Assembly (NCBI RefSeq): GCF_014191255.1
Contig: NZ_JACHWH010000013.1
Location: 1-64,000, forward strand
Source: Amycolatopsis bartoniae
Lineage (GTDB): Bacteria > Actinomycetota > Actinomycetes > Mycobacteriales > Pseudonocardiaceae
Direction: 5' to 3'
DNA: 64,000 nucleotides
Shown one piece after another: positions 2,125 through 50,589 of the stretch (positions are counted from its first letter, which is position 1; each line of letters opens with the position of its first letter). The notes beneath the pieces were generated by a model, which ran no database searches, was not told the DNA's origin, and saw only the letters and a list, made by a program, of their open reading frames with translations. A program made the translations under genes and the position numbers.

Positions 2125-2136
2125 TAGGACACTATA
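2125..2136. promoter_or_regulatory. Operator copy 1 (TAGGACACTATA)
   Basis: Member of the repeated near-palindrome family YAGGATMCTATA. It stands 26 bases upstream of the ferredoxin start and 40-51 bases upstream of the divergent DoxX gene, where a repressor could cover both promoters. Confidence 0.75.
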
Positions 2137-2175
2137 TACCTGGCGGCAAGAAGACGTTGCCGGACAAGGAGGTCG

Positions 2176-2676
2176 ATGCCCGTGAACGGGACTGAGGCCG
2201 CGCGGCTGTCGCTGCGCGGAACGGTCGGAGCGACGATGATCGCGCACGGGGTCAAGCACGCGCGCTCGCTCAAGGGGACCGCCGGCTGGTTCTCGTCGAT
2301 CGGGTTCCGGAAGCCGGAGCTCCAGGCGGCCGCAAGCGCCGCGGGCGCGATCGGCGCGGGCACTGCGCTGATCGCGGGCGCGGTGACGCCACTCGCCGGC
2401 GCGGCTGTCGTGGGGACGATGGCCGTCGCTGCGCGGTCCGTCCACGTCCGCAACGGGTTCTTCGTCACCAGCGAGGGCTACGAGTACGTGCTCGACCTCG
2501 CGGCGGCGTCGGTCGCGCTCGGCGCGCTGGTCCCGGGTGTTTCAGCGTCGATCGTGGCCTCGGACGGTTCCCGCGGTGGGCCGGGATTCGTGGTGCGCTG
2601 ATCACGGCCGGGCTCGGACTCGGCGCGGCCGCGGCCCAGCTCGGCGCCTTCTGGCGTGATCCGGGCAGATCCGAGC
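2176..2676 (+). pseudogene. DoxX-family membrane protein, frameshifted
   Basis: The first frame (2176-2601) encodes a DoxX-like membrane protein. It has the N-terminal HGVKHARSLKG motif, hydrophobic helices at about 50-85, and a third helix starting near residue 105. At about 2529-2538 the family sequence stops, and the frame runs into unrelated residues and a stop at 2599-2601. The expected C-terminal part, with an SVDRGLGR-like stretch, a last helix and GAFWR, continues in a neighbouring frame from about 2538 to 2670. One missing base near 2529 would rejoin the halves. This is either a real inactivating frameshift or a sequencing error. AAGGAGG at 2166-2172 fits GTG 2182 slightly better than ATG 2176. 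Confidence 0.7.
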
Positions 2677-2686
2677 GACCAGTCCG

Positions 2687-3613
2687 TCACTTGCTCAGCG
2701 CTTGTACGGTGCGCGACGGGCTGGGCCGGCCGAGCTCGCCGGCGAGCCAGTTGCTCGTCTCCACGAGCTTGCCGAGGTCCACTCCGGTGTGAATGCCGAG
2801 ACCGTCGAGCTGCCACAACAGATCCTCGGTGGCGAGGTTGCCGGTCGCGGACCCGGCGAAGGGACAACCGCCCAGGCCACCGGCGGAGGCGTCGACCGTG
2901 GTGATGCCGTGGCGTAGCGCGATGAGCGTGTTCGCGAGTGCCTGGCCGTAGGTGTCGTGGAAGTGCACGGCCAGCTGGTCGGTGCGGATCTCGTGGTGGC
3001 GCAGCGCGTCCAGCAGCGCGACGACCCGGCCGGGGGTGGCGACGCCGATGGTGTCGCCGAGGCTCAATTCGGTACAGCCCAGTTCCAGCAGCCGGGCGGC
3101 CACCGGCACGACCTGCTCCGGTGCGACCTCGCCCTCCCACGGGTCGCCCCAGCACATCGACACGTAACCACGCACGGCCAGGCCCGCCTCGCGCGCCCGC
3201 GCCACGACGGGGGCGAACATCTCCAGCGACTCACCGACAGTGCGGTTCAGGTTCGCCTTGGCGAAGCTCTCGGTGGCCGAGGCGAAGACGGCGATCTCGG
3301 TGACGCCGAGGTCGAGCGCCCGTTCCAGGCCGCGCAGGTTCGGAACCAGTACGGGATACCGCACCCCGTCCCGGCGATCCAGGCGGCGCAGCACCTCCTC
3401 GGCGTCGGCGAGCTGCGGAACCCACTTCGGGTGCACCGTGCTCGTGGCCTCGATGATCGTGTGCCCCGCGTCGGCGAGCCGCTCGATCAGCTCGACCTTC
3501 ACCGCCGTGGGGATCGATGTCTTCTCGTTCTGCAAGCCGTCGCGCGGACCGACCTCGCAAATCGTGACATGACTGGGGAGTTCCGCTAACGGAGTCGCGC
3601 CGTAGAAGTCCAC
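2687..3613 (-). CDS. mvaB: Hydroxymethylglutaryl-CoA lyase family protein
   Basis: This 308-residue TIM-barrel lyase cleaves HMG-CoA or a related 3-hydroxy-3-methyl acyl-CoA to acetyl-CoA and a keto acid. The first strand carries EVGPRDGLQNE (20-30) with catalytic Arg24 and metal ligand Asp25. His217 and His219 in HFHDTYGQ bind the metal. The glycine-rich loop GGLGGCPFAGSATGN carries the active-site Cys250. The start is GTG at 3611-3613 without a clear Shine-Dalgarno sequence, so the mRNA may be leaderless. It is divergent from the SDR at 3740. HMG-CoA lyase beside ACADs and crotonases suggests a branched substrate (inference). Real HMG-CoA specificity is unproven. Confidence 0.88.
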   Translation of the reverse strand: MDFYGATPLAELPSHVTICEVGPRDGLQNEKTSIPTAVKVELIERLADAGHTIIEATSTVHPKWVPQLADAEEVLRRLDRRDGVRYPVLVPNLRGLERALDLGVTEIAVFASATESFAKANLNRTVGESLEMFAPVVARAREAGLAVRGYVSMCWGDPWEGEVAPEQVVPVAARLLELGCTELSLGDTIGVATPGRVVALLDALRHHEIRTDQLAVHFHDTYGQALANTLIALRHGITTVDASAGGLGGCPFAGSATGNLATEDLLWQLDGLGIHTGVDLGKLVETSNWLAGELGRPSPSRTVQALSK

Positions 3614-3739
3614 GTTTTCATTATGAGACTGCTACTGTGTGCGGGACAGTCATGTGACCGAAGTCATCGCCGAATTCTCGAAGCGCTGGAGACAATACGA
3701 TGTCCTCTCGACGTGGAATCGGAAAAGGATGGAAACGGC

Positions 3740-4573
3740 ATGGCTCAGCTGGCTGGCAGGACGCTGCTCATCTCCGGCGGCAGTCGCGGAATCGGTGAGG
3801 CCATCGCCGTGCGCGCGGCCCGTGACGGCGCGAATGTCGCCCTCATCGCCAAGACCGCCGAACCGCATCCGGTGCTGCCGGGCACGATCTATACGGCGGC
3901 GGAGGCGATCGAAGCAGCGGGCGGGACGGCGCTCCCCATCGTCGGCGACATCCGCGACGACGCCACGGTCGCGGCCGCCGTCGAACAGACGGCGAAACGC
4001 TTCGGGGGCATCGACATCGTCGTCAACAACGCCAGCGCGATCGACCTGACGCCGACCGAGTCGGTGTCGATGAAGAAGTACGACCTGATGCAGGACATCA
4101 ACGCCCGCGGCAGCTTCCTGCTGACGAAGCAGGCGATCCCGTACCTGAAGGAGTCGTCGCACGGCCGCGTGCTGACGCTTTCCCCGCCGATCCGGCTGGA
4201 GCCCGAGTGGTTCGCCGAGGGCCATCTCGCCTACACGATCGCGAAGTACTCGATGAGCCTCACGACCGTGGGCCTGGCCGTCGAGTTGAAGCCGTACGGC
4301 GTCGGGGTCAATTCGCTGTGGCCGCGGACGATGATCGCGACCGCCGCCGTGCGCAATGTCGTCGGTGCGGAATTGGTCGAGCGCAGCCGGAAGCCGGAGA
4401 TCATGGCCGACGCGGCGTACGCCGTTCTCACCAAACCGGCCGACGTGACCGGCAATTTCTTCGTTGACCAGGACGTGCTCGCCGCGGAAGGCGTCACCGA
4501 TTTCTCGAAATACCGGATCTCGGGCGCGGAAAACGAGCTCGAAGCCGATCTGTGGATGGATCCGATGAAGTGA
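3740..4573 (+). CDS. Short-chain dehydrogenase, HSDL2-like
   Basis: This 277-residue Rossmann-fold oxidoreductase has the cofactor loop GGSRGIGE (13-20), NNAS (96-99), and a catalytic Ser148-Tyr165-XXX-Lys169 arrangement. The long insertion after the first helix and the PPI...W segment following Ser148 resemble the hydroxysteroid-dehydrogenase-like 2 group. The frame is open for 39 more codons upstream. ATG 3740 was chosen because the SDR fold starts there and a purine-rich AAGGATGG precedes it. It is divergent from the HMG-CoA lyase, and none of the repeated operators lies in the 126-base gap. A role in 3-hydroxyacyl or alcohol oxidation is inferred. Confidence 0.85.
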   Translation: MAQLAGRTLLISGGSRGIGEAIAVRAARDGANVALIAKTAEPHPVLPGTIYTAAEAIEAAGGTALPIVGDIRDDATVAAAVEQTAKRFGGIDIVVNNASAIDLTPTESVSMKKYDLMQDINARGSFLLTKQAIPYLKESSHGRVLTLSPPIRLEPEWFAEGHLAYTIAKYSMSLTTVGLAVELKPYGVGVNSLWPRTMIATAAVRNVVGAELVERSRKPEIMADAAYAVLTKPADVTGNFFVDQDVLAAEGVTDFSKYRISGAENELEADLWMDPMK

Positions 4574-4579
4574 CCGGAC

Positions 4580-6576: not shown

Positions 6577-6587
6577 TAGGATACTAT
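6577..6587. promoter_or_regulatory. Operator copy 2 (TAGGATACTAT)
   Basis: Repeated operator in the 67-base gap between the divergent thiolase (start 6550) and crotonase (start 6618). Confidence 0.78.
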
Positions 6588-8659: not shown

Positions 8660-9526
8660 TCAGTCCTGATCCGGCGGCGTGAGCTGGATCGTGGCCGCGA
8701 AGTCCTTGAGGTCGGCCAATGCCGTCCGCGAGCTGCGCCACGGGGCGACGACCACGCGGTCGACCCCGGCGGCGCCCCACGCGGCGAGATGGTCCTCGGT
8801 GGACACTTCGCCGCCCACGGTGATGTGGAAAGGCTCTTCCGAACGGCCCGCGGTGGCGCGCATCAACCGGAGCGTCTCGATCCGTCCCGCGGCGCTCGCG
8901 GGGGTGTGGCCACCGCGTCCCATCCAGCCGTCACCCAGCCGTGCCGCGCGCAGCAAGGCGGCAGACGACTCGCCGCCCACCAGAACGGGCGGGCCGCCGA
9001 GCTGGACCGGTTTCGGCTCGAAGCCCACTGCCGGAAAACGCCAGAACCGGCCCTCGTGCCGGACGGTTTCCTCGCGCCACAGCCTGCGGCAGACCTCGAT
9101 CGCCTCGTCGAGGCGCGCACCCCGGTCCACGGCGGAGATCCCGGCCGCGTCCCACTCCGCGGTGAGCCAGCCCGCGCCGACGCCCAGCAGTGCGCGGCCG
9201 TCGCTGACCTGGTCGAGGGTGGCCAGCGCCCGCGCGGAGGCGAACGGGTGCCGCAGGCCCAGCAGGAACACGTAGGTGCCGAGGCGGACGTGCCGGGTGA
9301 GGCCCGCGAGGTAGTGGCAGTAGCCGACCGCGTCGTACAGCGGCGTGTCCGGCTTCATCCGCCAGGATTCCCCGCCGAGCCCCTCGGCCTGCCCGGCCGG
9401 GGCGACGAGGTGGTCGGACAGCAGGACCGCGCCGAACCCCAGCTCGTCGGCGAGGCACGCGGCGTCCCGCCAGACCCCGGGGTTCAGCCGGCCGAGCGTG
9501 ATGGCCAGTTCGGGTTTCACAGGCAC
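8660..9526 (-). CDS. LLM-class F420-dependent oxidoreductase
   Basis: A 288-residue TIM-barrel flavin/F420 oxidoreductase of the bacterial luciferase superfamily. It has the SDHLVAP motif near residue 35, RHPFASARALATLDQVSDGR near 95-115, GVGAGWL, and a C-terminal VGGE/GDGWMGRG region typical of TIGR03619-like proteins. GTG 9524-9526 has GGAGG nine bases upstream; GTG 9520, overlapping the SDR stop, is the alternative. The gene overlaps the preceding SDR by a few bases, so translation is coupled. Hydride transfer to or from F420H2 on a pathway intermediate is inferred from family and not visible here. Confidence 0.83.
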   Translation of the reverse strand: MPVKPELAITLGRLNPGVWRDAACLADELGFGAVLLSDHLVAPAGQAEGLGGESWRMKPDTPLYDAVGYCHYLAGLTRHVRLGTYVFLLGLRHPFASARALATLDQVSDGRALLGVGAGWLTAEWDAAGISAVDRGARLDEAIEVCRRLWREETVRHEGRFWRFPAVGFEPKPVQLGGPPVLVGGESSAALLRAARLGDGWMGRGGHTPASAAGRIETLRLMRATAGRSEEPFHITVGGEVSTEDHLAAWGAAGVDRVVVAPWRSSRTALADLKDFAATIQLTPPDQD

Positions 9527-10266
9527 GGGTTGAGACCTCCGGCGACGGTGAGGACCTGGCCGGAGATGTTGCGGGCGTCCGGCCCCAGCAGGAACCGCAC
9601 GGCCCCGGCGATGTCCTCGGGCGAGTTCGGGCGGCCCAGCGGGTTGCGAGTCGCCCACTCGGCCGCGGTGGGGAAGCCGGGCAGGTCCGCGGCGAAGGTG
9701 ACCGTGCCGCCGGGCGCGATGACGTTCGCGGTGACGTCGTACGGGCCGACCTGGGTCGCGACCGAGCGGATGAAGGAGACGAGTGCCGCCTTCGCCGCCG
9801 CGTAGTGCGCGTGATCGGGCGATCCGGCCCAGCTGGTCGAGCCGATCGCGACGATCCGGCCACGTCGCCGCGCCATCATGTCGGGCAGCACCGCCTGCAC
9901 GCAGTGGAAGATCGAGTCCGCGTTGACGGCCATGGTGCGTGCCCACTCGGCGGGCGTGATCGACCAGACGGGGTTCTTCACCGGGCCCTTGATGCCGCCC
10001 GCCACGTGGACCAGGCCGGCGACCGCTGCCCACTGTTCGTGGGCGGCCGCGGTCAACGCCTGCGCGCCCTCCACGGTGCTGATGTCGGCGGTCACGGTGG
10101 CGACCCGGGCGCCCGCCTCCCGCGCGTCCTTCGCGACAGGCAGGAGCGAGCCCTCGCGGCGGTCGTTGAGCACCAGGTCGTAGCCCTCGGCGGCGAGCGT
10201 GGCGGCAACGGCGCTGCCCATCAGGCCGCCCGCTCCCGTGATCACCACGCAGGGTCGTGCATCCAT
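9517..10266 (-). CDS. Short-chain dehydrogenase/reductase
   Basis: A 249-residue SDR with the cofactor loop GAGGLMG (11-17) and a catalytic Ser143/144-Tyr155-Lys159 set within DHAHYAAAKAA. The usual NAG after strand four appears as VAGG (88-91). The start ATG 10264-10266 is preceded by AGGAGA. It sits ten bases after the adenylating enzyme and overlaps the luciferase-like gene, inside the long minus-strand operon. It probably oxidises a hydroxyacyl-CoA or ring hydroxyl group; no substrate can be assigned. Confidence 0.85.
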   Translation of the reverse strand: MDARPCVVITGAGGLMGSAVAATLAAEGYDLVLNDRREGSLLPVAKDAREAGARVATVTADISTVEGAQALTAAAHEQWAAVAGLVHVAGGIKGPVKNPVWSITPAEWARTMAVNADSIFHCVQAVLPDMMARRRGRIVAIGSTSWAGSPDHAHYAAAKAALVSFIRSVATQVGPYDVTANVIAPGGTVTFAADLPGFPTAAEWATRNPLGRPNSPEDIAGAVRFLLGPDARNISGQVLTVAGGLNPCL

Positions 10267-10276
10267 CTCGGATCTC

Positions 10277-11755
10277 CTATCGGCCGAGCAGGGCGAGGAT
10301 CGCCTGCCGGTCGGCCTTCATCGCGGCGGTGCGCGGCAACGCGTCCACCACGGCCACCTGGGCCGGGACCTTGAACGGCTCCAGCCGCTCGCGCACCCAG
10401 CCGCGCAGGTCCTCGCCCGTGACCTTGTCCTTCGTGGACAGTTCGACGGCCGCGACGGGAACCTGGCCGAGGCGCGGGTCGTCCGCGGGCACCACGGCCG
10501 CGTCCCGCACGTCCGGATGCGTGCGCAGCGCGGCGGCGACCTCGTCGGGGTCGATCTTGAAGCCGCCGCGGTTGATGGCCCCGTCCACGCGGCCCTCGAT
10601 CCACAGGAATCCGTCGTCGTCCACGCGCGCGAGATCGCTGGTGCGGACCCAGCCCTTGTCCTCGCGGCCGGCGGAGCGCACCTCCAGCACGCCCTGCTCG
10701 CCGTTCGGCACGGCCTCCCCGGTCTCCGGCGAGACGACCCGGACCTCGACCCCGGGGTGCACGCGACCGACCGCGCCGCGTTTGTCCGCCCCGTGTGCCT
10801 TGTGGTCCTTCAAGGTCCAGCTGGCGATGCCCTGGAACTCCGTGGCGCCGTAGGCGCGCAGCACCGGTACCCCGAACCGCGCCTCGAACTGTTCGGCGAC
10901 CTCCGCCGGCAACGGCGCCGAGCCGGCGCGTACCGCCTTCAGCGAAGAAAGCCAGTCGGCCGGGACGTCCGAGTCGAGCAGCATCTTGACCGCGGCCGGG
11001 GGCAGCCCCGTGGTGACGACCTGGTTTTCGCGGACAGCCTTCGCCCACGGCACGGGTTCGAACCTGGGGAGGACGACGAGCCGCCTGCCCTGCGCGAGCG
11101 TGGTGCACACCGTCTGCAACGCGCTGGTGTGTGCCAGCGACAACATCTGGATGGTCACGCCGGACCGCAACGCGGCCCGCACGGGAGCACCGTCCTTGCT
11201 GTGGTGGCGTTCCACGGCATCGATCGACGCGGACAGTGCGGGGTAGCTCAGCTCGATCCGCTTCGGCGGCCCCGTCGTGCCGCTGGACTTCAGGCTCACC
11301 GCGACATCGCCGGTCAGCACGGCGAACCCGGGAGCCGGGCGGCGCCGCACCCCCAGCCGAGCGGCGCCGCCGCGGCTGACCGCGATGCCGACGAGCCCCG
11401 AGGACTCGATGGACTCACGCACTCCGGGGCGCAGCAGGTCTGTCTCGGTGGCGAGGACGGCTGCCGGGCGCTTCTCGGCGATCTCCTCGGCGAGCGCCTT
11501 GTCCGGCTGCAGGTCGTGGAGCGTGAACACGACCCGGTGCTCGGCCAGCAACGCCACGAAGACCTCGATGACCTCCGGACTGTTGCGGCAGATCACCCCG
11601 ATCGCGGCCTCGGGCGGGATCTCGGCGAGCAGGTCGTGCAGGGTCCCGCGCAGCCGCGCGATGTCGCCCCAGGTGTCCCAGACCCCGTCGGCGCCCACTG
11701 CCGGGGTGTCGGCGCCGAGGGTGAGCAGTTCGCCGAACCGCTGTGTGATGTCCAT
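10277..11755 (-). CDS. Acyl-CoA ligase (AMP-binding)
   Basis: A 492-residue ANL enzyme with the P-loop KSSGTTGPPKR at 156-166, the YGATEFQG motif, and catalytic Lys480 in the C-terminal RTAAMKADR. The N-terminal domain is shorter than in typical FadD proteins and the P-loop ends in Arg where Gly is usual. ATG 11753-11755 begins two bases after the stop of the phosphotransferase gene, so the two are translationally coupled. It is one of four ligases here and is likely dedicated to one intermediate or to an alternative growth substrate (inference). Confidence 0.85.
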   Translation of the reverse strand: MDITQRFGELLTLGADTPAVGADGVWDTWGDIARLRGTLHDLLAEIPPEAAIGVICRNSPEVIEVFVALLAEHRVVFTLHDLQPDKALAEEIAEKRPAAVLATETDLLRPGVRESIESSGLVGIAVSRGGAARLGVRRRPAPGFAVLTGDVAVSLKSSGTTGPPKRIELSYPALSASIDAVERHHSKDGAPVRAALRSGVTIQMLSLAHTSALQTVCTTLAQGRRLVVLPRFEPVPWAKAVRENQVVTTGLPPAAVKMLLDSDVPADWLSSLKAVRAGSAPLPAEVAEQFEARFGVPVLRAYGATEFQGIASWTLKDHKAHGADKRGAVGRVHPGVEVRVVSPETGEAVPNGEQGVLEVRSAGREDKGWVRTSDLARVDDDGFLWIEGRVDGAINRGGFKIDPDEVAAALRTHPDVRDAAVVPADDPRLGQVPVAAVELSTKDKVTGEDLRGWVRERLEPFKVPAQVAVVDALPRTAAMKADRQAILALLGR

Positions 11756-11757
11756 GT

Positions 11758-12789
11758 TCACCGGAGGCCCTTCGTGGCGTCGAGTGCCGTGTCGATCAGC
11801 TGGGGGACGATCCACTCGAACTCGGCCTGGTGGGCGTTCCCGCCGTCCCCGCGCACGTGTTTGGCGTAGCCGCCTTCCAGGACGACGGCGAGCTTGAACA
11901 GCGCCAATGCCTGGTAGTAGCCGAGGTTCGCGACGTCCTCGCCGGAGGCGCGCGCGTAGCGTTCGACCACCTCGTCGCGCGTGGGCATGCCCGCACGCTG
12001 GGTGACCCACGAGCGGCCGGGCGGGACCGCTGCCGGTTGCTCGCCCGCGTGCGCCCACAGCCCGACGAACCAGCCAAGGTCCAGCATCGGGTCGCCGATC
12101 GTCGCCTGCTCCCAGTCGACCACCGCGGTCACCCCGCCGTTCTCGGCCAGCACGTTGGCGAAGGTGAAGTCACCGTGCATCAGCCCGGTCCGGTAGCGCG
12201 CCGGGCGGTGCTCTTCGAGCCAGCGGGCCAGCTCGTCCACGCCCGGCAGCGGCCGGATCCGGTACTGCTCCAGCTGACTGGTCCACCGGCCGACCTGGCG
12301 CTCCAGAAACCCGTCCGGGCGGCCGAAACCGCCGAGCCCGGCGGCTTCCCAGTCCACCGCGCCGATCGCGGCGAGCGTGTCGACCGTGCGAAGCGCCAGC
12401 TCACGCACCTCGGCCTCGGGCAGGGCGGGGGAGTCCCAGCGCAGGTTGAAGCCCGGCACGAGCTCCATGATCAGGAACGGCCCGCCCAGCGGGGACGACT
12501 CGTCACCGTGCAGCAGCGGCCGGGGGTGGGGGACCGCTGTGCCGGCGAGAGCGCGCAGCAGCCGCCACTCGCGTCCGACGTCGTGCGCGCTCTTGGACAC
12601 CTTGCGCCGCGGCGGAATGCGCAGCACGAGCGGGCCGCGGTCGGTGTCGAGGCGGTACATGCGGTTGGACGCGCCGACGGAAATGGGGGTGATGGCCGTC
12701 AGCTCCACCGGCCCGTCCGGGTGTCCGGAAAGGACGGTTGCCAGATTGGCGGGATCGGTGGCGGGGTCGACCCGTTCGTCAACGCTCAC
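11758..12789 (-). CDS. Phosphotransferase family protein (APH/ACAD10-like)
   Basis: A 343-residue kinase-fold protein with the Brenner motif HGDFTFANVL and the metal-binding DWEQATIGDPMLDLGW. In bacteria this group is typically encoded beside an acyl-CoA dehydrogenase, as here. In eukaryotes the two are fused as ACAD10/11, which phosphorylates 4-hydroxyacyl-CoAs for their catabolism. The GTG start (12787-12789) overlaps the end of the ACAD at 12779 by 11 bases, which supports a functional pair. The suggested role is 4-hydroxyacyl-CoA handling together with that ACAD; antibiotic resistance is unlikely. Confidence 0.85.
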   Translation of the reverse strand: MSVDERVDPATDPANLATVLSGHPDGPVELTAITPISVGASNRMYRLDTDRGPLVLRIPPRRKVSKSAHDVGREWRLLRALAGTAVPHPRPLLHGDESSPLGGPFLIMELVPGFNLRWDSPALPEAEVRELALRTVDTLAAIGAVDWEAAGLGGFGRPDGFLERQVGRWTSQLEQYRIRPLPGVDELARWLEEHRPARYRTGLMHGDFTFANVLAENGGVTAVVDWEQATIGDPMLDLGWFVGLWAHAGEQPAAVPPGRSWVTQRAGMPTRDEVVERYARASGEDVANLGYYQALALFKLAVVLEGGYAKHVRGDGGNAHQAEFEWIVPQLIDTALDATKGLR

Positions 12790-13978
12790 CGAAATCCCAG
12801 CCCTCTCCGTTCTCGTACGAACGCAGGATGCGGGTGGCGACGCGCTGGACGTGCACTTCGTCCGGGCCGTCGACGACGCGGCCGAAGCGCGCCTCGCGGT
12901 ACATCGCCTCCAGTGGCAGCAGGTTCGACATGCCCTCGGCGCCCCAGACCTGCATCGCGCGGTCGATCACGTTGTGCACGGTCTGTGCACAATGGACCTT
13001 CACCGAGCTGAGCTCGACCCGCGCCTGGTCTCCGGAGTCCAGCTTCGCCGCCGCGTCGAGCACGAGGAGCCTGCTGGCCTTGAGCTCCTGGTAGGAGTCG
13101 AAGACGAACTTCTGCACGAGCTGCTTGCGCGCCAGTGGTTCGCCCTTGAGCGTGCGGCTGTTGGCGCGCTCGCAGAGGTAGTCGAACGCGCGCTGCGCCG
13201 AGCCGAGCCAGCGCATGCAGTGGAAGATCCGGCCGGGGCCGAGGCGCTGCTGCGCGAGCTTGAACCCGTCACCGCGGCCGCCGATGATGTTCGCGGCGGG
13301 CACGCGCGCGTTGTCGAACTCGATCTCGAAGTGGCCGGACATCACGCCGCGCATGCCCATCACCTCGATGTCGCGCACGAGGTCGTAGCCGGGCGTGTCC
13401 CGCTCGACGAGGATCATGCTGAACGCCTCGTGCGCCGGGGCGTCGGGCTCGGTGCGGGCCATCACGATCGTCGCGGCGGAGCGGTCGGCGGCGCTGATGA
13501 ACCACTTGCGCCCGGTGAGCACCCACTCGTCGTTCTCAAGGCGGGCGGTGGTGGTGAACTGGGTCGGGTCGGAGCTGGAGACGCCGGGTTCGGTCATCGC
13601 GAACGCGAGCCGCAGATCTCCCGCCACCGAAGGAAGAACCCACCGTTCGCGCTGCTCGTCGGTGGCCACCGGGTCGAGCATCAGCACGGTCTGCAGCGTC
13701 GTGGTGCCGAAGACCTGCGTCGCGGGCTCGGAGCGGCCGATGACCTCGTTGACGTACGCGTAGTCCAGCATGGACAGTCCGCCACCGCCGAGATGCCGGG
13801 GGTGGCCGAGCGCCCACAGCCCGTCGGACTTGGCCTTCTCCTCGAGCTCGCGCAGGACGTCGCGGCCCTGCTCGCCGCCGCCGAGCAGCGTCTGCTCGGC
13901 CGGGTACACGTGCGTTTCCAGGAAGTCGAGCACGCGCCGGCGTATCGGGCGCACCGATTCCGGGACTTCGAAGCTCAT
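12779..13978 (-). CDS. Acyl-CoA dehydrogenase (ACAD10/11-like)
   Basis: A 399-residue FAD-dependent acyl-CoA dehydrogenase. The FAD/substrate signature AFAMTEPGVSSSD is present, followed by GRKWFISAAD and the C-terminal VWGAEGMSNLLPLEAMYREARFGRVVDGPDEVH with the probable catalytic Glu. The sequence is closest to the ACAD10/11 group, in keeping with the overlapping phosphotransferase gene downstream. It starts at ATG 13976-13978, 30 bases after the crotonase stop. Together the pair may remove a gamma-hydroxyl from a 4-hydroxyacyl-CoA via a phosphorylated intermediate (family knowledge applied by inference). Confidence 0.9.
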   Translation of the reverse strand: MSFEVPESVRPIRRRVLDFLETHVYPAEQTLLGGGEQGRDVLRELEEKAKSDGLWALGHPRHLGGGGLSMLDYAYVNEVIGRSEPATQVFGTTTLQTVLMLDPVATDEQRERWVLPSVAGDLRLAFAMTEPGVSSSDPTQFTTTARLENDEWVLTGRKWFISAADRSAATIVMARTEPDAPAHEAFSMILVERDTPGYDLVRDIEVMGMRGVMSGHFEIEFDNARVPAANIIGGRGDGFKLAQQRLGPGRIFHCMRWLGSAQRAFDYLCERANSRTLKGEPLARKQLVQKFVFDSYQELKASRLLVLDAAAKLDSGDQARVELSSVKVHCAQTVHNVIDRAMQVWGAEGMSNLLPLEAMYREARFGRVVDGPDEVHVQRVATRILRSYENGEGWDFGER

Positions 13979-14008
13979 CGTCGATCCTTTCGCAGCCGGA
14001 GAGCCCGG

Positions 14009-14818
14009 TCAGACCTGCCACCGCGGAGGACGCCGCTCCGCGAACGCCCTCGGGCCCTCCTGGGCGTCGGGATGGTGGTCGGCGTGCGCGCGCAACAGGA
14101 CGAAGCCGCGGCGCAGCGCCTCGTGGTGGGGGAGTGACAGCGACTCCAGAACCGCCTGCCTGCTGATCGCGATCGCCTCGGGGCTGCCCTCGGCGACCAT
14201 CGCGGCCAGCTCGGCCGCGCGCTTGCGCAGGTCCGCCGCGGGGACGACCTCGGTGACCAGCCCGATCGCCTCGGCGCGCTCGGCCGTGATCCGCTCGCCC
14301 TTGCCGACCAGCACCATGCGCATGAGATGACCCAGCGGCACCGTGCGGGACAGCCCGATCGGCTCCAGCGCCGACACCTGGCCGACGTTGACGTGCGGGT
14401 CGAGGAACGTCGCCGAGTCCGCGGCGATCGCGAAGTCGCAGTCACTGACGAAATGCAGCCCCGCGCCCGCGCACACGCCGTTGACAGCGCAGATCGTCGG
14501 TTTGCGGATGCCGGCCTGGACCGGGGTGAAGTTGTTCTCGCGGTCGTAGTCGCTCGTGCGGTTGCGCGAGGTGTCGGCGACGGTCGAGACGTCGGCGCCC
14601 GAGCAGAACGCGCGGTCGCCGGCACCGGTCACCACGGCGACGCGCAGCTGCGGGTCCGCGTCGTAGGCGAGCCAGACCTGGTGCAGTTCCTGTTGCATGA
14701 GCGGCGAGAGCGCGTTCAACCGGTCGGGCCGGTTCAGCTCGACCGTCGCGACCGGACCGTCCACGGTGACGTCAAGGGTCTCCCACGGCCCCGTCACCGG
14801 GTGTTCGCCGGTCGTCAT
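14009..14818 (-). CDS. Crotonase-fold protein without hydratase glutamates
   Basis: This 269-residue crotonase keeps the oxyanion loop CSGADVSTV (about 72-80) and the C-terminal FAERRPPRW tail. The two catalytic Glu positions are changed: GGGxEL reads GAGLHFV (His122) and the LPEV region reads DPHVNVGQ. The fold is therefore clear, but simple enoyl-CoA hydration is doubtful; isomerase, hydrolase or C-C lyase chemistry is known among such variants. The ATG (14816-14818) overlaps the stop of the PaaK-like gene, so translation is coupled. Confidence 0.85.
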   Translation of the reverse strand: MTTGEHPVTGPWETLDVTVDGPVATVELNRPDRLNALSPLMQQELHQVWLAYDADPQLRVAVVTGAGDRAFCSGADVSTVADTSRNRTSDYDRENNFTPVQAGIRKPTICAVNGVCAGAGLHFVSDCDFAIAADSATFLDPHVNVGQVSALEPIGLSRTVPLGHLMRMVLVGKGERITAERAEAIGLVTEVVPAADLRKRAAELAAMVAEGSPEAIAISRQAVLESLSLPHHEALRRGFVLLRAHADHHPDAQEGPRAFAERRPPRWQV

Positions 14819-16098: not shown

Positions 16099-16120
16099 GA
16101 ATTTCCTTCCGTTTCGTGCT

Positions 16121-17423: not shown

Positions 17424-17437
17424 ATTAGGATCCTAAT
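17424..17437. promoter_or_regulatory. Operator copy 3, best palindrome (ATTAGGATCCTAAT)
   Basis: A perfect 14-base palindrome that lies directly against the first possible ATG of the ACAD gene. It is the most symmetrical copy and defines the half-site ATTAGGA. Confidence 0.82.
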
Positions 17438-18806: not shown

Positions 18807-18818
18807 TAGGATCCTATA
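18807..18818. promoter_or_regulatory. Operator copy 4 (TAGGATCCTATA)
   Basis: It lies 14 bases upstream of the GMC oxidoreductase start (18832). It is also about 150 bases upstream of the divergent binding-protein gene, which may share it. Confidence 0.78.
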
Positions 18819-32826: not shown

Positions 32827-32838
32827 CAGGATACTATT
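32827..32838. promoter_or_regulatory. Operator copy 8 (CAGGATACTATT)
   Basis: Between the divergent SMP-30-like gene (start 32776) and P450 (start 32887 or 32863). Confidence 0.75.
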
Positions 32839-38687: not shown

Positions 38688-38700
38688 TATAGTATCCTAA
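38688..38700. promoter_or_regulatory. Operator copy 9 (TTAGGATACTATA on minus strand)
   Basis: Between the divergent ACAD pair (start 38627) and SDR (start 38727), 27 bases upstream of the latter. Confidence 0.8.
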
Positions 38701-39546: not shown

Positions 39547-39558
39547 TAGGATCCTAAT
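39547..39558. promoter_or_regulatory. Operator copy 10 (TAGGATCCTAAT)
   Basis: It precedes the unit made of the unusual ligase, NDMA-dependent alcohol dehydrogenase and ABC importer. Confidence 0.8.
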
Positions 39559-42317: not shown

Positions 42318-45023
42318 GTGACCACTCTCCTGCAGTTCGTGATCCTCGGCCTGTGCACCGGTGCCCTGTACGCGCTCTCCGCGCTGGGCATGGTGATCGT
42401 GTACCGGGGTTCCCAGGTGATCAATTTCGCGCACGCCGCCATCGGGGTCGCGGGTGCCTATGGTTTCTACGAGCTCCACGACGTGCGGCACCTGCCGTTC
42501 TTCGCCGCGTTCGTGCCCGCGATCCTGCTCTGCGCGGTTCTGGGTGTGCTCGTGCAGTTCGGCATCATGCGGCCCCTGCAGAACAGCTCACCGCTGGTGC
42601 AGATCCTCGGCACGCTCGGCGTGCTCGCGGTGATCCAGGGCGCGCTCGCGTTGCGGTACAAGCAGCAGACCATCGCGGTGACCTCCTCGTTGCCGCGTGA
42701 CCCGGTGACGTTGGGCGGCATCAGCGTGGGCGCGGACCGCCTGCTGATCCTGCTCGTCGTGGTGGTCGTCGCCGTCCTGCTCGCGTGGCTCTACGCGAGG
42801 ACACCGTTCGGGCGGGCGACCTCCGCGGTGGCCGAGGACCGCACCAGCGCCGCGTACCTCGGGTACTCGCCCAACGCGATCGCCGGGGCCAACTGGGCCG
42901 TCGGCTCGATGCTCGCCGGCACGGCCGCGATCCTGCTCGCGCCCATCACCGGCCTGCAGACGAATCAGCTCACGCTGCTGCTTGTGCCCGCGCTCGCCGC
43001 CGCGGTCGTGGGCCGGCTGCGGTCCTTCCCGATCACGGTGGGCGCGGGGCTGCTGATCGGCGCGGTGCAGGCGGTGCTGGGCCGTTACGCCAACGCCGTC
43101 GACTGGGGTTCGGCCGTCCCGTTCGTGCTCGTGCTCGTCGTGCTGCTGTTGCGCGGCAGCCGGATCCCCGGGCGCGGGCACGTCGAGCTGCGGCTGCCGG
43201 CGGTCGGCACCGGGCGGATCAGGCCGGTCACGGTGATCGTGCTGGCCGTGCTCGCGATCGTGGTGCTGCAGGTGCTGCCGGTCGGCTGGGTCGACGGCGC
43301 CATCACCACGGTCGCGACCGGCGTGATGATCCTGTCCGTCGTGGTGGTGACCGGATACGGCGGGCAGGTGTCGCTGGCCCAGGTCGTGCTCGGCGGTATC
43401 GGCGCCTGGGTCGCGGGACGCCTGGTGGCGGCCATGGGACTCGGGTTCGGCCCGGCGCTGGTGCTCGGAGTGCTCGCGGCGCTTCCCGTCGGGATCATCG
43501 TCGGCCTCCCGGCGCTGAGAACGCGTGGCGCCAACCTGGCGGTGATCACGCTCGCGTTCGGGGTCGCCGTTGAGGCGCTGCTGTTCAACTCGGCGCCGCT
43601 CACCGGTGGGGACGTCGGCACGCAGGTCGGGTTCATCTCGCTGTTCGGGATCAAGCTCGACACGATCTTCAACCCGCGCAACTACGCCACGTTCTGCGTG
43701 GTGGCCTTCGCGGTGTGCGGGCTCGCGGTCGCGAACCTCCGGCGAGGCAAGGCCGGACGACGGCTGCTCGCGGTACGCGCCAACGAACGCGCGGCCGCGG
43801 CGGCGGGCGTCAACACCACGGCGGCGAAGCTCTATGCCTTCTCGGTCGGCGCGATGATCGCCTCCCTGGGCGGAATCCTGCTGGCGTTCCGCGACTCGTC
43901 GATCGTCTACTACAACATCCAGGCCTTCCACTCGGTCGACGTGCTCGGCTACGCCGTCTTCGGTGGTGTCGGCTACGTGGCCGGCCCGCTCGTCGGCGGG
44001 ATCCTGCAGCCGGGCGGGTTCGGCACCAACATCGGGAACCTGTTCTCCCCGGCGGTGCAGGACTATCTGCCGATCATCGGCGGGGCGCTGCTCATCCTGA
44101 CGCTGCTGACGCAGCAGAACGGCGTCGTCCACCTGGAGGCCCGTCGTTGGGGCCGCTGGCTCGACGCGGCCGGCTCCTGGCTGCGCCGGCGCCGCACGCG
44201 CCCGGTCGTGCTGCCCGACGAAGACCCGTCCGTCCCGCGAGTACAGCCGAAAACCCTTCGCACGGAGGAGCTTTCGGTGACGTTCGGCAGCACGACCGTC
44301 CTCAACGGACTTTCCATGGAAGTCGCACCCGGGCAGGTCGTCGGGCTGATCGGGCCGAACGGCGCCGGCAAGACCACGGCCATCGACGCGATCACCGGGT
44401 TCGTCCAGCCGTCCGCGGGGCGGGTCCTGCTCGGCGAAGACGACCTGACCCGGCAGCCGCCGCGGCGCCGCGCGGAGGCCGGGCTGGCGCGGTCCTTCCA
44501 GCAGCTGGAGCTGTTCGAGGACATGACGTTGTTCGAGAACCTGCTGGTGGTCAGCGAAAGCCGGTCCTGGTCGTCCTACGTCAAGGATCTCTTCTGGCCG
44601 GGCACGCCGAAGCTGAGCCCGGCGGCCGCGGCGGCGGTGCGGATGTTCGGGCTGTCCGAGGATCTGCACCGCAAACCGACCGAGCTGTCCTACGGCCGCC
44701 GCCGGCTGGCCGCCATCGCACGGGCCATCGCGGCGGAACCGTCGGTGATCCTGCTCGACGAGCCCGCCGCGGGGCTGAGCCAGCACGAGAGCGCGGAGCT
44801 CGAGCACCTGCTGCGCTATCTCGCCGACGAGCGCGGCATGGGCGTGCTGCTGATCGAGCACGACGTGGACCTGGTGATGGCCAGCTGCGACACGGTCACC
44901 GCGATCGTGTTCGGCACCGAGATCGTCTCCGGCACGCCCGAAGAGGTGCGACGCGACGCCACCCTCATCGAGGCCTACCTCGGCCGGCCCGTCGGCGTCG
45001 ACGTCGAAATGGAGGACCGATGA
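42318..45023 (+). CDS. Fused LivH-LivM-LivG branched-chain-type ABC importer
   Basis: A 901-residue single chain joining three usually separate proteins. Residues 1 to about 290 form a LivH-like permease (GALYALSALGMVIVYRGSQVI), about 300 to 620 a LivM-like permease (GYGGQVSLAQ), and about 650 to 901 a LivG-like ATPase. The ATPase has Walker A GPNGAGKTT (about 679-687), signature LSYGRRR (about 789), Walker B VILLDEPAAGLS and switch His in IEHDVD. It acts in the cytoplasmic membrane with LivF (next gene) and the distant binding protein. GTG 42318 is preceded by AGGGGC. Its ATGA overlap with livF supports one complex. Confidence 0.92.
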   Translation: MTTLLQFVILGLCTGALYALSALGMVIVYRGSQVINFAHAAIGVAGAYGFYELHDVRHLPFFAAFVPAILLCAVLGVLVQFGIMRPLQNSSPLVQILGTLGVLAVIQGALALRYKQQTIAVTSSLPRDPVTLGGISVGADRLLILLVVVVVAVLLAWLYARTPFGRATSAVAEDRTSAAYLGYSPNAIAGANWAVGSMLAGTAAILLAPITGLQTNQLTLLLVPALAAAVVGRLRSFPITVGAGLLIGAVQAVLGRYANAVDWGSAVPFVLVLVVLLLRGSRIPGRGHVELRLPAVGTGRIRPVTVIVLAVLAIVVLQVLPVGWVDGAITTVATGVMILSVVVVTGYGGQVSLAQVVLGGIGAWVAGRLVAAMGLGFGPALVLGVLAALPVGIIVGLPALRTRGANLAVITLAFGVAVEALLFNSAPLTGGDVGTQVGFISLFGIKLDTIFNPRNYATFCVVAFAVCGLAVANLRRGKAGRRLLAVRANERAAAAAGVNTTAAKLYAFSVGAMIASLGGILLAFRDSSIVYYNIQAFHSVDVLGYAVFGGVGYVAGPLVGGILQPGGFGTNIGNLFSPAVQDYLPIIGGALLILTLLTQQNGVVHLEARRWGRWLDAAGSWLRRRRTRPVVLPDEDPSVPRVQPKTLRTEELSVTFGSTTVLNGLSMEVAPGQVVGLIGPNGAGKTTAIDAITGFVQPSAGRVLLGEDDLTRQPPRRRAEAGLARSFQQLELFEDMTLFENLLVVSESRSWSSYVKDLFWPGTPKLSPAAAAAVRMFGLSEDLHRKPTELSYGRRRLAAIARAIAAEPSVILLDEPAAGLSQHESAELEHLLRYLADERGMGVLLIEHDVDLVMASCDTVTAIVFGTEIVSGTPEEVRRDATLIEAYLGRPVGVDVEMEDR

Positions 45024-45753: not shown

Positions 45754-47382
45754 TCAGCTCGTCAGTTGCTCTTCGCGCTCGTGCTGTCGCGTGTGGACGA
45801 ACCCGCGGTAACCGTTCGCGGCGACGTCCGCGCAGACCTGGCCGTAGACGTTGAGGCCGCCGACGTAGGGCATGAAGATTCTCGGCTTGCCCGGGATGTT
45901 GGCGCCCATGTACCACGAGGCGGCCTGCGGGTAGAGCGTGCTGTGCGCGACCTCGTTGACGTGCCCGACCCACTGGTCCTCGGCAGCCCGGTCGGGCTCG
46001 GTCGCGGCGATCCCGTCCGCGCGCAGCTTCGCCACGTACCCCGCGATCCACTCGACGTGCTGCTCGATCGCACACACCATGTTGGACAGTACCGAGGGGC
46101 TGCCCGGACCGGTGACGATGAACAGGTTCGGAAAGCCCGCACTCGCGATGCCGAGGTACGTGCGCGGCCCGTCCCGCCACTTGTCACGCAGTTTCAGTCC
46201 GTCCTTGCCCCGGATGTCGATCCGGTTGAGCGGGCCGGTCATGGCGTCGTAGCCGGTGGCGAAGACGATCACGTCCACCACCGTGTGGTCCCCGCCCACG
46301 GTCACGCCGTCGCGGGTGATCCGCTCGATCGGCCGGTCCTTCACGCTCACCAGCGTCACGTTGTCCCTGTTGAACGTGGCATAGTAGTCGGTGTCGACGC
46401 AGATCCGTTTGGTGCCGATGGGATAGTCGGTCGGTTCGAGCAGCGCCGCCACTTCGGGGTCCTCGACGATTTCGTGGATGCGTTCCCGGACGAACTCGGC
46501 GGCGATGTCGTTGGCCGTCCGGTCGGTGAGGCAGTCCGCGAAGGTCCCCATGTACCCGGGACCGCCCTTCGCCCAGCGTTCCTCGAGCGCGCGCCGCTGC
46601 TGTTCGGTGGTGAGGTCGGCGGCCTTGCCGGCGGGCGGGGCCTGCAGCGAGCCACCGGCGGTCTGCCGCTGCTGCGCCCGGATCTCGGGGTACCGCGCCT
46701 TGACATCGGCGATCTCCTCCTCGCTGAGGGGCCGGTTGCGGGCGGGGAGCGAGAAGTTCGGCGTCCGCTGGAACACCGTGAGGTGCGCTGCCTGTTTGGC
46801 GATCTCGGGGATGGCCTGGATGCCGGACGAGCCGGTGCCGATGACGGCGACCCGCTTGCCGGTGAAGTCCACGCCTTCGTGCGGCCAGTGGCCGGTGTGG
46901 TAGACCTCGCCGGCGAACTCCTCCAGGCCGGGGAACTCCGGCACCTGTGCCGCTGAGAGGCAGCCGACGGCGCTGACGACCCAGCGGGCGGAGACGGTTT
47001 CACCGTCGTCGAGCCCGACCTCCCAGCGGGAGCCGGCCTCCTGCCACGTCGCGGAAACGACCCGGGTGCGGAACCGGATGTCGCGGCGCAGGTCGTGGCG
47101 CTGCGCGACGTACTGGGCGTAGGCGAGGATTTCCGGCTGTGTCGCGAACCGTTCGCTCCACGTCCACGACTGGTCGAGCTCGGGGTCGAACGAGTAGGAG
47201 TAGTAGATGCTCTCGGCGTCGCAGCGCGCGCCGGGGTAGCGGTTCCAGTACCAGGTGCCGCCGACGTCGTCCCCGGTCTCGTACACCACGACGGACAGCC
47301 CGAGGTCGTCCCGTAGCTTCTTGAGCGCGTACAGACCCGCGAACCCCGCGCCGATGACGACGGCGTCGTAAGTGTTGCTCAT
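45754..47382 (-). CDS. Baeyer-Villiger monooxygenase (flavin)
   Basis: A 542-residue class B flavoprotein monooxygenase. It has two Rossmann loops, GAGFAG (11-16) and GTGSSG (about 187-192), and the type I BVMO fingerprint FxGxxxHxxxWP at 156-167. It inserts oxygen beside a ketone to give an ester or lactone, using NADPH and O2. ATG 47380-47382 overlaps the stop of the esterase-like gene (ATGA), the expected partner for hydrolysing the ester. That partner seems damaged. A second BVMO with an intact-looking esterase lies at the right end of the window. Confidence 0.9.
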   Translation of the reverse strand: MSNTYDAVVIGAGFAGLYALKKLRDDLGLSVVVYETGDDVGGTWYWNRYPGARCDAESIYYSYSFDPELDQSWTWSERFATQPEILAYAQYVAQRHDLRRDIRFRTRVVSATWQEAGSRWEVGLDDGETVSARWVVSAVGCLSAAQVPEFPGLEEFAGEVYHTGHWPHEGVDFTGKRVAVIGTGSSGIQAIPEIAKQAAHLTVFQRTPNFSLPARNRPLSEEEIADVKARYPEIRAQQRQTAGGSLQAPPAGKAADLTTEQQRRALEERWAKGGPGYMGTFADCLTDRTANDIAAEFVRERIHEIVEDPEVAALLEPTDYPIGTKRICVDTDYYATFNRDNVTLVSVKDRPIERITRDGVTVGGDHTVVDVIVFATGYDAMTGPLNRIDIRGKDGLKLRDKWRDGPRTYLGIASAGFPNLFIVTGPGSPSVLSNMVCAIEQHVEWIAGYVAKLRADGIAATEPDRAAEDQWVGHVNEVAHSTLYPQAASWYMGANIPGKPRIFMPYVGGLNVYGQVCADVAANGYRGFVHTRQHEREEQLTS

Positions 47383-48282: not shown

Positions 48283-49398
48283 TCACTGGTCAAATGGCGC
48301 GTTCCGGTAGCCAAATGGACTGTGCGGCGGGAGCAGCTGGTGGGTCTCCCGCAGCCGCCGCAGGGTGAGGGCCATGAACAGGCGGGTGCGGCCGTAGCTG
48401 TCCGAGAGGCTGAACCCGAGTCCCCGTTCGGCCTGCGCCACCCGGTGCGCGACCGAGTTGTGATGGGCGCGCAGAGTACGGGCCGCTTGCCGGATCGAGC
48501 CGGCGGACACGACGACGTCGAGCGTCTCCAGCATCGGGAGGCCGCCGGACTGCAGGACCGCGTCCAGCGCATGGAGATCGGAGATCCGGGCCAGGTGGTC
48601 CGGAGTCAGCGCTTCGGCGAGCACCTCGTAGCCGTGCACCATCTCCGTCCGCACCACCGCGCCCTCCTCCGCGCGGTAAGGGCCACTGTCGTGGGTGCTG
48701 GGCTGGCTGAACCGGAACGCGGCTTCAGCCTCCCGGCAGGCACGCGGGGCGTCGGCGGTGGGGTGGACGCCGCTGATGCCCGCCTGGACGCCACGCGGTA
48801 CGTCGATACGGTCGATGTCGTCGAGCCCCTGGCACAGCAGCAGAAGCGTGCGTGGCTTTTCCCAGCAGGTCGTGCGCGCGCCCTGGGCTTCGAGTCCCTC
48901 GGTGAAGGCGCGCAACGCTTCTTTCGGCCCTGCGGCGACGACCACCCGGACACGCGTGGAGGGACCGAGGGCGAGATGGCGGAGCGCGGCGTCGCGCACC
49001 ATCGGGCGCACGTCCGGGTCGACGAGCAAGGCAACCGCGGTGGAGCTGGTGAGGCGGGGGCCGAACGGGCGTTCGGCGTCGAGTCGCAGCCGTACGGTGA
49101 GCGCGAGCCGGTCGAGGATCGCGTGGTCCTCGTCGGTGAGGTCACGTCCGATCGCGACGAGCACGTTGTGCCGGTCGAGGACGAGCGCGGTTTCTTGGGG
49201 CCAGGTCGTACTCAGCCGGTCCCCGGTGGCCACCGTCACGGTGGCCCCGGCGTCCGCCGGCCGCACTCCGATGGTGCGGCCGGTCCAGCGGGCGGTCTCG
49301 CGCACGATCGTTCCCACATCGGCGTGGGAGGTCAGCAGGTCGTCGAAGAACCGGATGACCCGATCGGGGTAGGACGGCGCGGCGTCGCGATCGGCCAT
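48283..49398 (-). CDS. PucR/CdaR-type transcriptional regulator
   Basis: A 371-residue regulator with a C-terminal PucR-type helix-turn-helix at about 305-345 (LETLDVVVSAGSIRQAARTL, then HHNSVAHRVAQAERGLG) and a GGDEF-like or GAF-like middle region without clear catalytic motifs. Such proteins are usually activators of small catabolic operons sensing their substrate. It lies 76 bases upstream of the esterase/BVMO genes in the same direction and is divergent from the zinc dehydrogenase. I infer control of either neighbour. Start is ATG 49396-49398. Confidence 0.8.
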   Translation of the reverse strand: MADRDAAPSYPDRVIRFFDDLLTSHADVGTIVRETARWTGRTIGVRPADAGATVTVATGDRLSTTWPQETALVLDRHNVLVAIGRDLTDEDHAILDRLALTVRLRLDAERPFGPRLTSSTAVALLVDPDVRPMVRDAALRHLALGPSTRVRVVVAAGPKEALRAFTEGLEAQGARTTCWEKPRTLLLLCQGLDDIDRIDVPRGVQAGISGVHPTADAPRACREAEAAFRFSQPSTHDSGPYRAEEGAVVRTEMVHGYEVLAEALTPDHLARISDLHALDAVLQSGGLPMLETLDVVVSAGSIRQAARTLRAHHNSVAHRVAQAERGLGFSLSDSYGRTRLFMALTLRRLRETHQLLPPHSPFGYRNAPFDQ

Positions 49399-49495
49399 CG
49401 GAAGATCCTAGCGAAAGTCTCCGCGTGCACGCCGTGCGCGCCGTGCCGGACCGATGGGGTCCGGGTCGGAACCGCCAGGCGACCACCGAGAGTAA

Positions 49496-49507
49496 TAGGA
49501 TCCTGTA
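49496..49507. promoter_or_regulatory. Operator copy 11 (TAGGATCCTGTA)
   Basis: In the gap between the divergent PucR-type gene (start 49398) and the frameshifted alcohol dehydrogenase (start 49537). Confidence 0.75.
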
Positions 49508-49536
49508 AGAGATCCTTACGAGAAGGGAGTCCGGCG

Positions 49537-50555
49537 ATGAAGGCGTACCGCCTGTATGGCGACCACGACGGCCGGCTGGTGGACGTGCCGGTTCCGTCAC
49601 CGAAGGCCGGTGAGGTGCTGGTCAAGGTCGCCGCCACCGGGGTGTGCGGTTCGGACGTGCACAGCCTGGAGAACGCGGGACGTTACGGGTATCCGCTGCC
49701 GCACACCCTCGGTCACGAGACGACCGGCTGGGTCGAGACGCTGGGAGACGGGGTGTCCGGATTCGAGCCGGGGCAGCCGGTTGCGCTGTACTCGTTGCTG
49801 TCGTGCGGGAAGTGCGGCAATTGTGCGCGCGGCTACGCGAACTTGTGCCGGACGGGATTCGCGGCTCCGCTGGGCGGCGCTGTGGACGGGGGCATGGCGG
49901 AGTACGTCGTGGCACCCGCCGCAACCTCGTGCCGTTGGGCGATCTCGACCCGGTGGTCGCGGCCCCGCTCACCGACGCGGGAAAGACGAGTCACAACGCC
50001 GTAAGCGTGGCCAAGGACCGGCTGGGTGAGGGGTCGGTCTGCGTGGTCGTGGGTATCGGCGGCATCGGGCACGTCGCGCTGCAGGTTCTTCGCGCCATCA
50101 CCCGGGCGCGTGTCATCGCGGTGGACACGGACCCGGACCGGCTCGGCTACGCTCGCGAGCTCGGCGCAGGGGAGACGGTGCAGTCGGGTCCGGGCGCCCG
50201 TGAGCGGATCGCCGAGCTGTGCGACGGGATGGGAGCGGACGTGGTGTTCGACTTCGTCGGTCTGTCCCAGACGGTGGAGCTGGCGTGCGGAGTCGTCGCG
50301 GCCGGCGGCAAGATCGTCATGGTCGGACTGGGAGATGGCGTGGTGCCGGTCAAACTGGGCGGCGTGCTACCGCAGCAGGTCGAGGTGGTGGTGCCGCTCG
50401 CGGGCGGGAAACCGAACCTGGAAGCCGTGCTCGAACTCGCGCGCAAGGGCGAGGTCACGGCGAAGGTCACCACGTTCCCGCTCGCGGAAGTGGCCGACGT
50501 GGTGCGCCGGGTCCACGAGGGGAAGGTGCTCGGCCGCGCTGTACTGGTTCCCTGA
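49537..50555 (+). pseudogene. Zinc alcohol dehydrogenase, frameshifted
   Basis: The first part (49537 to about 49920) has Cys37, His60/Glu61 and the structural zinc cysteines 90, 93, 96 and 104 of a medium-chain dehydrogenase. At about 49918-49921 the reading frame breaks. The protein continues in another frame with NLVPLGDLDPVVAAPLTDAG, the cofactor loop GIGGIG and a normal C-terminus ending at 50555. One inserted C near 49920 restores a full-length protein. The original frame ends at 50004. The start follows AAGGGA, with operator copy 11 upstream. It is either a real inactivating deletion or a sequencing error. Confidence 0.85.
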
Positions 50556-50577
50556 CCGGGCTGGCGTCCCACAAAAA

Positions 50578-50589
50578 TAGGATACTGTA
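50578..50589. promoter_or_regulatory. Operator copy 12 (TAGGATACTGTA)
   Basis: It lies just upstream of the broken SDR gene at 50596, the last copy to the right. Confidence 0.75.

Follow-up and report, generated by a model that had tools for sequence, protein, structure and literature searches.

Twelve palindromes in Amycolatopsis bartoniae as probable operators of an FCD-type GntR regulator within a presumably duplicated catabolic regulon

The present work concerns twelve near-identical palindromes in a stretch of 64,000 nucleotides from Amycolatopsis bartoniae (contig NZ_JACHWH010000013.1, positions 1 to 64,000; hereafter, the window) and GntR-1, the FCD-type GntR regulator encoded among them. 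In metal-binding FCD domains, three histidines (and an aspartate) form the metal site, and the operator of Caulobacter VanR is ATTGGATCCAAT. The operators of the FadR (FCD) subfamily have been described by the consensus TKGT/ACMA, NyGTM-N0-1-KACNy (PMC4494728), and the effector domain of the FadR group is reported to have seven helices instead of six, with the extra one at the start (PMC7797058). The latter source gives ATGTATACAT as the operator of Atu1419 from Agrobacterium fabrum, a tetramer of the VanR group. AlkR is a GntR/VanR repressor of alkB2, which has the operator ATTGTCAGACAAT and is released by fatty acyl-CoA (PMC12042122), and NanR binds a (GGTATA)3 repeat (PMC8012715). Among the matches listed from the open-licence literature, no name was found for the operator or the regulon described here. 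According to our analysis, it is very probable that the twelve palindromes are operators of GntR-1, in what looks like a duplicated catabolic regulon whose repressor and operators shifted together.

The motif is present at all twelve places where the original prediction had located it. According to our own gene calls, all twelve sites (not eleven, as had been proposed) are intergenic, yet intergenic DNA represents 7.5% of the region from 1 to 51.4 kb. Divergent gene pairs flank nine of them (seven had been counted previously), and eight out of the nine divergent junctions in 1-51.8 kb harbor an operator, the exception being 3613/3713. The exact 12-mer YAGGATMCTATA occurs at four operator places; the core common to the operators is YAGGATMCTR, with the variants AGGACACT (2125) and AGGGTCCT (24156), and AG occupies half-site positions 4 and 3 in all 24 half-sites. 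A 20-bp matrix built from the twelve operators scored these same training sites at 24.9-35.3 bits, against 12.3 bits for the next distinct place in the window, which is coding; in 20 Markov shuffles, the mean was 0.05 matches per window at 18-20 bits, with none above. The leave-one-out scores, obtained with a symmetric matrix, were 21.5-31.1.

Operators 7 and 9 are read on the reverse strand and all the others on the forward strand. Operator 1 (TAGGACACTA, 2125..2134) lies between an acyl-CoA ligase (-) and a short doubtful open reading frame (ORF) (+), overlapping a promoter-like pair at 2121-2149, and operator 2 (TAGGATACTA, 6577..6586) lies between a thiolase (-) and an enoyl-CoA hydratase (+). 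Operator 3, a perfect palindrome within ATTAGGATCCTAAT (17426..17435), stands ahead of an eight-gene operon running from 17422 to 8660 (-), while operator 4 (18807..18816) separates a substrate-binding protein (-) from a GMC oxidoreductase (+). Operator 5 (24070..24079) and the degenerate operator 6 (CAGGGTCCTA, 24156..24165) share the junction between an unknown protein-aldehyde dehydrogenase unit (-) and an amidohydrolase unit (+). Operator 7 (28116..28125) is flanked by a luciferase-like gene (-) and an acyl-CoA dehydrogenase (+), operator 8 (CAGGATACTA, 32827..32836) by an unknown-FAS1_DH unit (-) and the P450-CoA transferase-GntR-1 unit (+), and operator 9 (38690..38699) by an acyl-CoA dehydrogenase pair (-) and an SDR gene (+). 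Operator 10 (39547..39556) is 5' of an acyl-CoA ligase-ADH-Liv-type ABC transporter unit (+), operator 11 (TAGGATCCTG, 49496..49505) lies between a PucR-type regulator-hydrolase-Baeyer-Villiger monooxygenase (BVMO) unit (-) and an alcohol dehydrogenase (+), and operator 12 (TAGGATACTG, 50578..50587) is 5' of an SDR gene (+).

A motif search over the whole genome, which had been suggested as a check, showed that the strict motif is confined to the locus: outside the window, TAGGATMCTA occurs at one place in the 7.76 Mb genome, within a coding ORF. The exact sequence YAGGATMCTRWW likewise has one place outside the window (contig C12, 48456), five bases inside a called ORF. Allowing one mismatch, it gave 103 forward and 98 reverse matches versus 18 and 38, respectively, for the reversed pattern; this loose consensus was discarded as a specific probe, the matches listed being mostly CAGGATCCTG-like places. 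The AT-flanked form of AGKATMCT occurs in the genome at 17 places, one on contig C15 and 16 on the same contig as the window, that is, eight in the window (seven operators and a coding place at 48004) and eight in a second cluster (cluster 2). As for other organisms, TAGGATMCTA was retrieved from two out of 61 genomes of relatives, own included, and from 32 out of 390 genomes of the family, with one distinct place in each of the 31 others besides our own; therefore, within this sample, no other genome uses this form repeatedly. A GntR match at 1e-40 is likewise present in four of the 31 (G155, G172, G331, and G401), yet it lies on a different contig or at a distance of 1.7 Mb.

The gene of GntR-1 (35521..36291, +), the third of the P450 unit under operator 8, encodes a protein with the Pfam domains GntR (3e-08) and FCD (9.9e-21), both above the cut-off, which places it among the FCD GntR regulators. 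We fetched 78 loci of GntR-1 homologues, which became 74 after the removal of four near-duplicates and 69 once five with less than 50% of the DNA called as coding were left out; 20 loci of more remote GntR homologues, with 26-35% identity, served as controls. The intergenic DNA of the 69 loci (172 kb) contains 60 copies of AGKATMCT and their coding DNA (1,116 kb) four, which ranks this palindrome first out of 128 classes for the intergenic/coding contrast; at least one intergenic copy is present in 38 of the loci. An earlier count without exclusions (85 loci) had given 87 intergenic and five coding matches. In the control loci, 41 kb of intergenic DNA contain a single copy, for which the family rate gives a Poisson P of about 1e-5. 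This association of regulator and operator across genomes indicates that the motif very probably belongs to GntR-1, so that the GntR protein named by the original prediction is the right candidate, and it agrees, together with the whole-genome searches, with the idea of one local regulator having locus-confined operators.

The AlphaFold model of GntR-1 (mean pLDDT 89) has seven C-terminal helices (residues 84-97, 102-122, 126-144, 153-161, 165-179, 186-208, and 212-244), which points to the FadR group. The TM-scores obtained with Foldseek are modest (0.31-0.61 by query, among the 50 matches listed). NanR, LldR (CGL2915), and the S. agalactiae GntR are among the best fold matches of the model, with 22-26% identity, and a sequence search with the family profile also ranks these three highest; the VanR-group structures Atu1419 and AlkR match the model too, further down the list. 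GntR-1 falls far below the NCBIfam cut-offs for NanR, LldR, PdhR, UxuR, ExuR, and GlcC, the best value being 81 of 260 bits for NanR. In an alignment of 40 sequences, H155 is invariant and H200 and H222 are each conserved in at least 90%; these three histidines may correspond to the FCD metal ligands. By homology, and by the presence of AGKATMCT in the nearby intergenic DNA, GntR-1 belongs to what we define here as the AGKATMCT-type FCD group.

The window cluster is one of two paralogous clusters on the contig. Cluster 2 spans 66-124 kb, starting about 2 kb past the window, and harbors nine core sites, all of them intergenic, for example, AAGTATACTC; its regulator GntR-2 (122188-122982) is 62-64% identical to GntR-1, and an operator at 123064 lies in the promoter region of its own gene. 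Reciprocal best matches were found for 30 out of 45 window-cluster ORFs against 50 ORFs from 66 kb on, with 28-81% identity and with weak matches for the ABC permease and one pair of SDRs. The proteins of cluster 2 are mostly 91-99% identical in a genome of the same genus (G003) and 86-98% in one of another genus (G196), except for those of the 66.5-70.2 kb unit and some others, for which the stretches retrieved from these two genomes contain no comparable partner; many of the cluster-2 operators are repeated there as well (e.g., ATTTTGAGGATACTAATTAG in G000, G003, and G196). Against the same stretches, no window ORF exceeds 81%, with the exception of a 74-aa fragment at the beginning of the contig (89%). 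Thus, the form shared with other genomes is that of cluster 2, and the window contains its diverged sister, which would have arisen by duplication. The cluster-2 operators follow the usual form of the family, NAGKATMCTN, the outer base being a purine. The motif of the window is a variant, with a presumed shift in specificity, of an AGKATMCT operator common to a wide, mostly actinobacterial GntR subfamily, and is therefore not one of a kind. A lone AT-flanked site off the main contig (TAGAGGATACTTTA, C15:5498) was also detected on a contig that encodes a PucR-type paralogue at 78778; this stretch may be a continuation of cluster 2.

The operators of the window differ from those of the family in a consistent way. 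For the family, 82 core matches came from all 78 loci, and the comparison set comprises 66 unique sites with at least six out of 12 flanking bases being A/T. At the outer position of the 10-mer, 20 of the 24 window half-sites have T and four have C, while T accounts for 14 of the 132 family half-sites. None of the 12 window sites has a purine on either outer side, versus 62 of the 66 family sites with one on at least one side, and T is found on both sides in eight of 12 versus one of 66 (Fisher P 1.8e-7). The pattern from which the window sites were originally collected began with Y, which could introduce a bias; a core-only search recovers ten of the 12 operators, and in these the split persists (purine in 0/10, Fisher P 1e-9; T on both sides in 7/10, P 4e-7). 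At the second base of the half-site, which adjoins the centre pair, G is found in 17 of 24 window half-sites (a departure from the GT/AC boxes of FadR-subfamily operators), in six of 18 from cluster 2, and in 47 of 132 from the family, where the half-sites are mixed (85 GT and 47 GG). As for the protein, V52, S59, and L74 are unique to GntR-1, both within the 78 sequences aligned and within 49 distinct stretches of homologues from protein searches (one locus may be in both sets); Q56 occurs in 2/78 and 2/49 and E68 in 9/78 and 1/49, respectively. L74 is partly ascertained in the set of 78, one fetch pattern having contained RRGPGGGL. In our alignment to FadR, position 52 corresponds to Thr46 and position 56 to Glu50, and 74 is in the wing; Table 1 of PMC4494728 indicates that Thr46 touches bases and that Glu50 holds the arginines. 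The changed residues are candidates for the cause of the base changes. We slightly favor a scenario in which the catabolon was duplicated and one copy was rewired, the reading head (V52, Q56, S59, and L74) and all the operators changing together, to give two insulated sister circuits; if true, this would be a natural specificity switch of the GntR family with both the ancestral and the derived forms present.

A different scenario is that GntR-1 and GntR-2 cross-regulate both clusters, the difference between operators being drift without insulation. AGKATMCT is indeed common to both motifs; in a cross-scoring with leave-one-out matrices, though, all 12 window sites and seven out of nine cluster-2 sites scored higher on their own matrix. 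The remaining two (72498 and 83533) scored slightly higher on the cluster-1 matrix, which speaks for this scenario and makes some cross-binding likely. Given also the near-complete split of the outer base and the reading-head residues changed in GntR-1 alone, we hold general cross-regulation to be rather unlikely. It is far less probable still that the operators are bound by the PucR-type regulator (48283..49398, -; Pfam HTH_30), with GntR-1 as a bystander. This gene lies in the window cluster with operator 11 upstream, cluster 2 has its own PucR-type gene at 66504, and homologues (E<=1e-20) are present in five out of 61 genomes, own included, four of which (G000, G003, G007, and G040) are among the six with a GntR match at E<=1e-40. 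The two regulators, then, tend to co-occur in genomes, so that the rarity of the PucR-type gene in relatives does not discriminate between them. An AT-flanked core site is present in 43 of the 74 deduplicated GntR loci, all 43 being devoid of a PucR-type homologue; the only one of the 74 that encodes such a homologue lacks the site. Conversely, eight of the nine loci fetched by PucR-type homology (about 4 kb each) are siteless and the ninth is the window itself, while the cluster-2 site nearest to its PucR-type gene (72498) is about 5 kb away. The PucR-type protein is probably a target or a co-regulator.

A further reading takes the motif as a conserved promoter element, the -10 box of actinobacteria being represented by TAGGAT or TACTAT. 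Both are compatible with TANNNT, and seven of the 12 operators overlap a loose -35/-10 pair versus 27 of 500 random intergenic points; this excess is partly due to AT-richness, and the figure for cluster 2 is three of nine. A -10 box would be expected genome-wide, yet TAGGATMCTA occurs once outside the window, and the conservation of AG extends over both half-sites, so that this reading is hardly credible. Operator 3, which had been described as lying against a start codon, sits instead at the spacer/-10 border of the promoter-like pair TTGACA-18-AATAAT and shares only one base with the -10, a further point against the promoter reading; since this -10 includes the ATG at 17422, GTG 17380 would be the likelier start. 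In 1-51.8 kb, strict sigma-70-type promoter matches are limited to two, one overlapping operator 1 and the other operator 3, which favors repression by blocking of the polymerase and weakly disfavors GntR-1 as an activator, a role known for some FCD proteins, such as CitO with citrate (PMC4746285), and improbable here. Several observations weigh against a GntR-1 repressor acting through these sites: the strict promoter matches are no more numerous than in shuffles (means 0.8, 0.5, and 0.5 for three stretches), so that their position alone is informative; the divergent pair at 2687-4573 has no operator; GntR-1 has none directly at its own gene; the PucR-type regulator is present in both clusters; 31 of the 69 GntR loci have no intergenic core site within the fetched stretch; and an AT-flanked site is found in 27 of 35 loci with a single GntR and in only 16 of 39 with a fused one. 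AGKATMCT is, therefore, not universal in the subfamily.

In the mechanism that we propose, a GntR-1 dimer would bind the twelve operators and repress about 40 genes in 19 predicted units; judging from gene order, the number of predicted genes that follow the operators is nearer 40 than the 30 first suggested. GntR-1 is probably autoregulated, since its gene lies in the operon under operator 8. The controlled genes would take up and degrade one hydrophobic compound, probably cyclic or terpenoid/steroid-like, by P450/BVMO oxidation followed by CoA-thioester steps, and the repressor would be released when its FCD pocket binds an intermediate, either a carboxylate or a CoA ester. The window unit would be a diverged duplicate of the cluster-2 catabolon, which the paralogue GntR-2 would run on family-type operators, and the changes in the GntR-1 operators (T outside, and GG for GT in most half-sites) would keep the two circuits mostly apart. 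An operator can now be proposed for a widespread, mostly actinobacterial subfamily of catabolic FCD-GntR regulators, of which our searches yielded no earlier account, and whose regulons become readable from genomes. Moreover, repressors that are 62-64% identical and have matched operators represent a natural pair for testing the GntR protein-DNA code with few substitutions, and orthogonal repressor-operator pairs are useful in gene circuits.

The genes following the operators code for CoA ligases, acyl-CoA dehydrogenases, CoA transferases, a P450, a BVMO, aldehyde dehydrogenases, and a branched-chain-type ABC transporter, and it is plausible that they serve one compound class. The largest controlled operon (8660..17422, -; eight predicted genes), downstream of operator 3, includes two acyl-CoA dehydrogenases, an AMP-binding ligase, a PaaK-like ligase (a weak NCBIfam match), an enoyl-CoA hydratase, an APH-type kinase, an SDR, and a luciferase-like protein. 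The cytochrome P450 (32926..34158, +), which is 55% identical to the P450 of cluster 2, has CYP101J2, CYP125MRCA, and P450cam as its best solved relatives; an ORF of 901 aa (42318..45023, +) joins a branched-chain-type permease (in two stretches) and an ATPase in one chain; and the BVMO (45754..47382, -) is nearest to phenylacetone and steroid monooxygenases. Searches of PDB sequences for clues to the substrate gave answers at the family level for the P450 and the BVMO, and no PDB sequence match at 1e-10 for the substrate-binding protein. The solved structures closest to the P450 and BVMO are those of enzymes of cyclic terpenoids, steroids, and ketones, a faint hint at the class of the substrate.

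Elsewhere in the window, a tRNA-Val call (3267-3360) within an HMGL-like ORF is probably false, and a short piece of the old-yellow-enzyme family (51360-51761) is probably a remnant. The unit at 53590-58343, without operators, comprises an acyl-CoA dehydrogenase pair, one member of which has Tcur3481 as its nearest solved relative, and a Thiolase_C_1 protein; it looks like a separate pathway.

Among the homologue loci, 39 of the 74 deduplicated ones harbor a fused regulator, in which a single ORF of about 480-510 aa encodes the GntR+FCD unit twice (L053:10108-11583, L052:14629-16161, L055:10733-12169, and others); Pfam recognized two stretches of each domain in all three that were tested. These proteins look like single-chain dimers, and a narrow-phrase search of the literature found no description of them. 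In their loci (L075, L080, L090, and others), AGTACACT is found in ten and AGTATACG in eight, in intergenic DNA; the two sequences are perhaps asymmetric operators of the fused proteins.

Compared with the known systems, the window operators share a GGATCC centre and AT arms with the Caulobacter VanR operator, which has TTGG where TAGG is found here. The steroid regulons of KstR and KstR2, from which the original prediction set the motif apart, have a TetR regulator, while the candidate here is a GntR protein. As a putative repressor, GntR-1 would resemble AlkR, an FCD protein placed over -10 regions; AlkR, in contrast, belongs to the VanR group, has one main target gene, and recognizes another operator (PMC12042122). 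Atu1419, as described in PMC7797058, likewise offers a 10-bp palindrome with a GTATAC centre, an overlap with -10 boxes, and a catabolic repressor, but it is a tetramer of the VanR group, whereas the GntR-1 model has FadR-group helices, and the operators here have other flanks and GG in most half-sites. With the FadR-subfamily operators summarized in PMC4494728, the common features are a short dimer palindrome in divergent promoters and a local regulon; the window operators depart from that consensus by having GG for GT in 17 of 24 half-sites, preceded by A instead of TK, while the cluster-2 type AGTATACT suits the GTM-KAC form with zero spacer bases.

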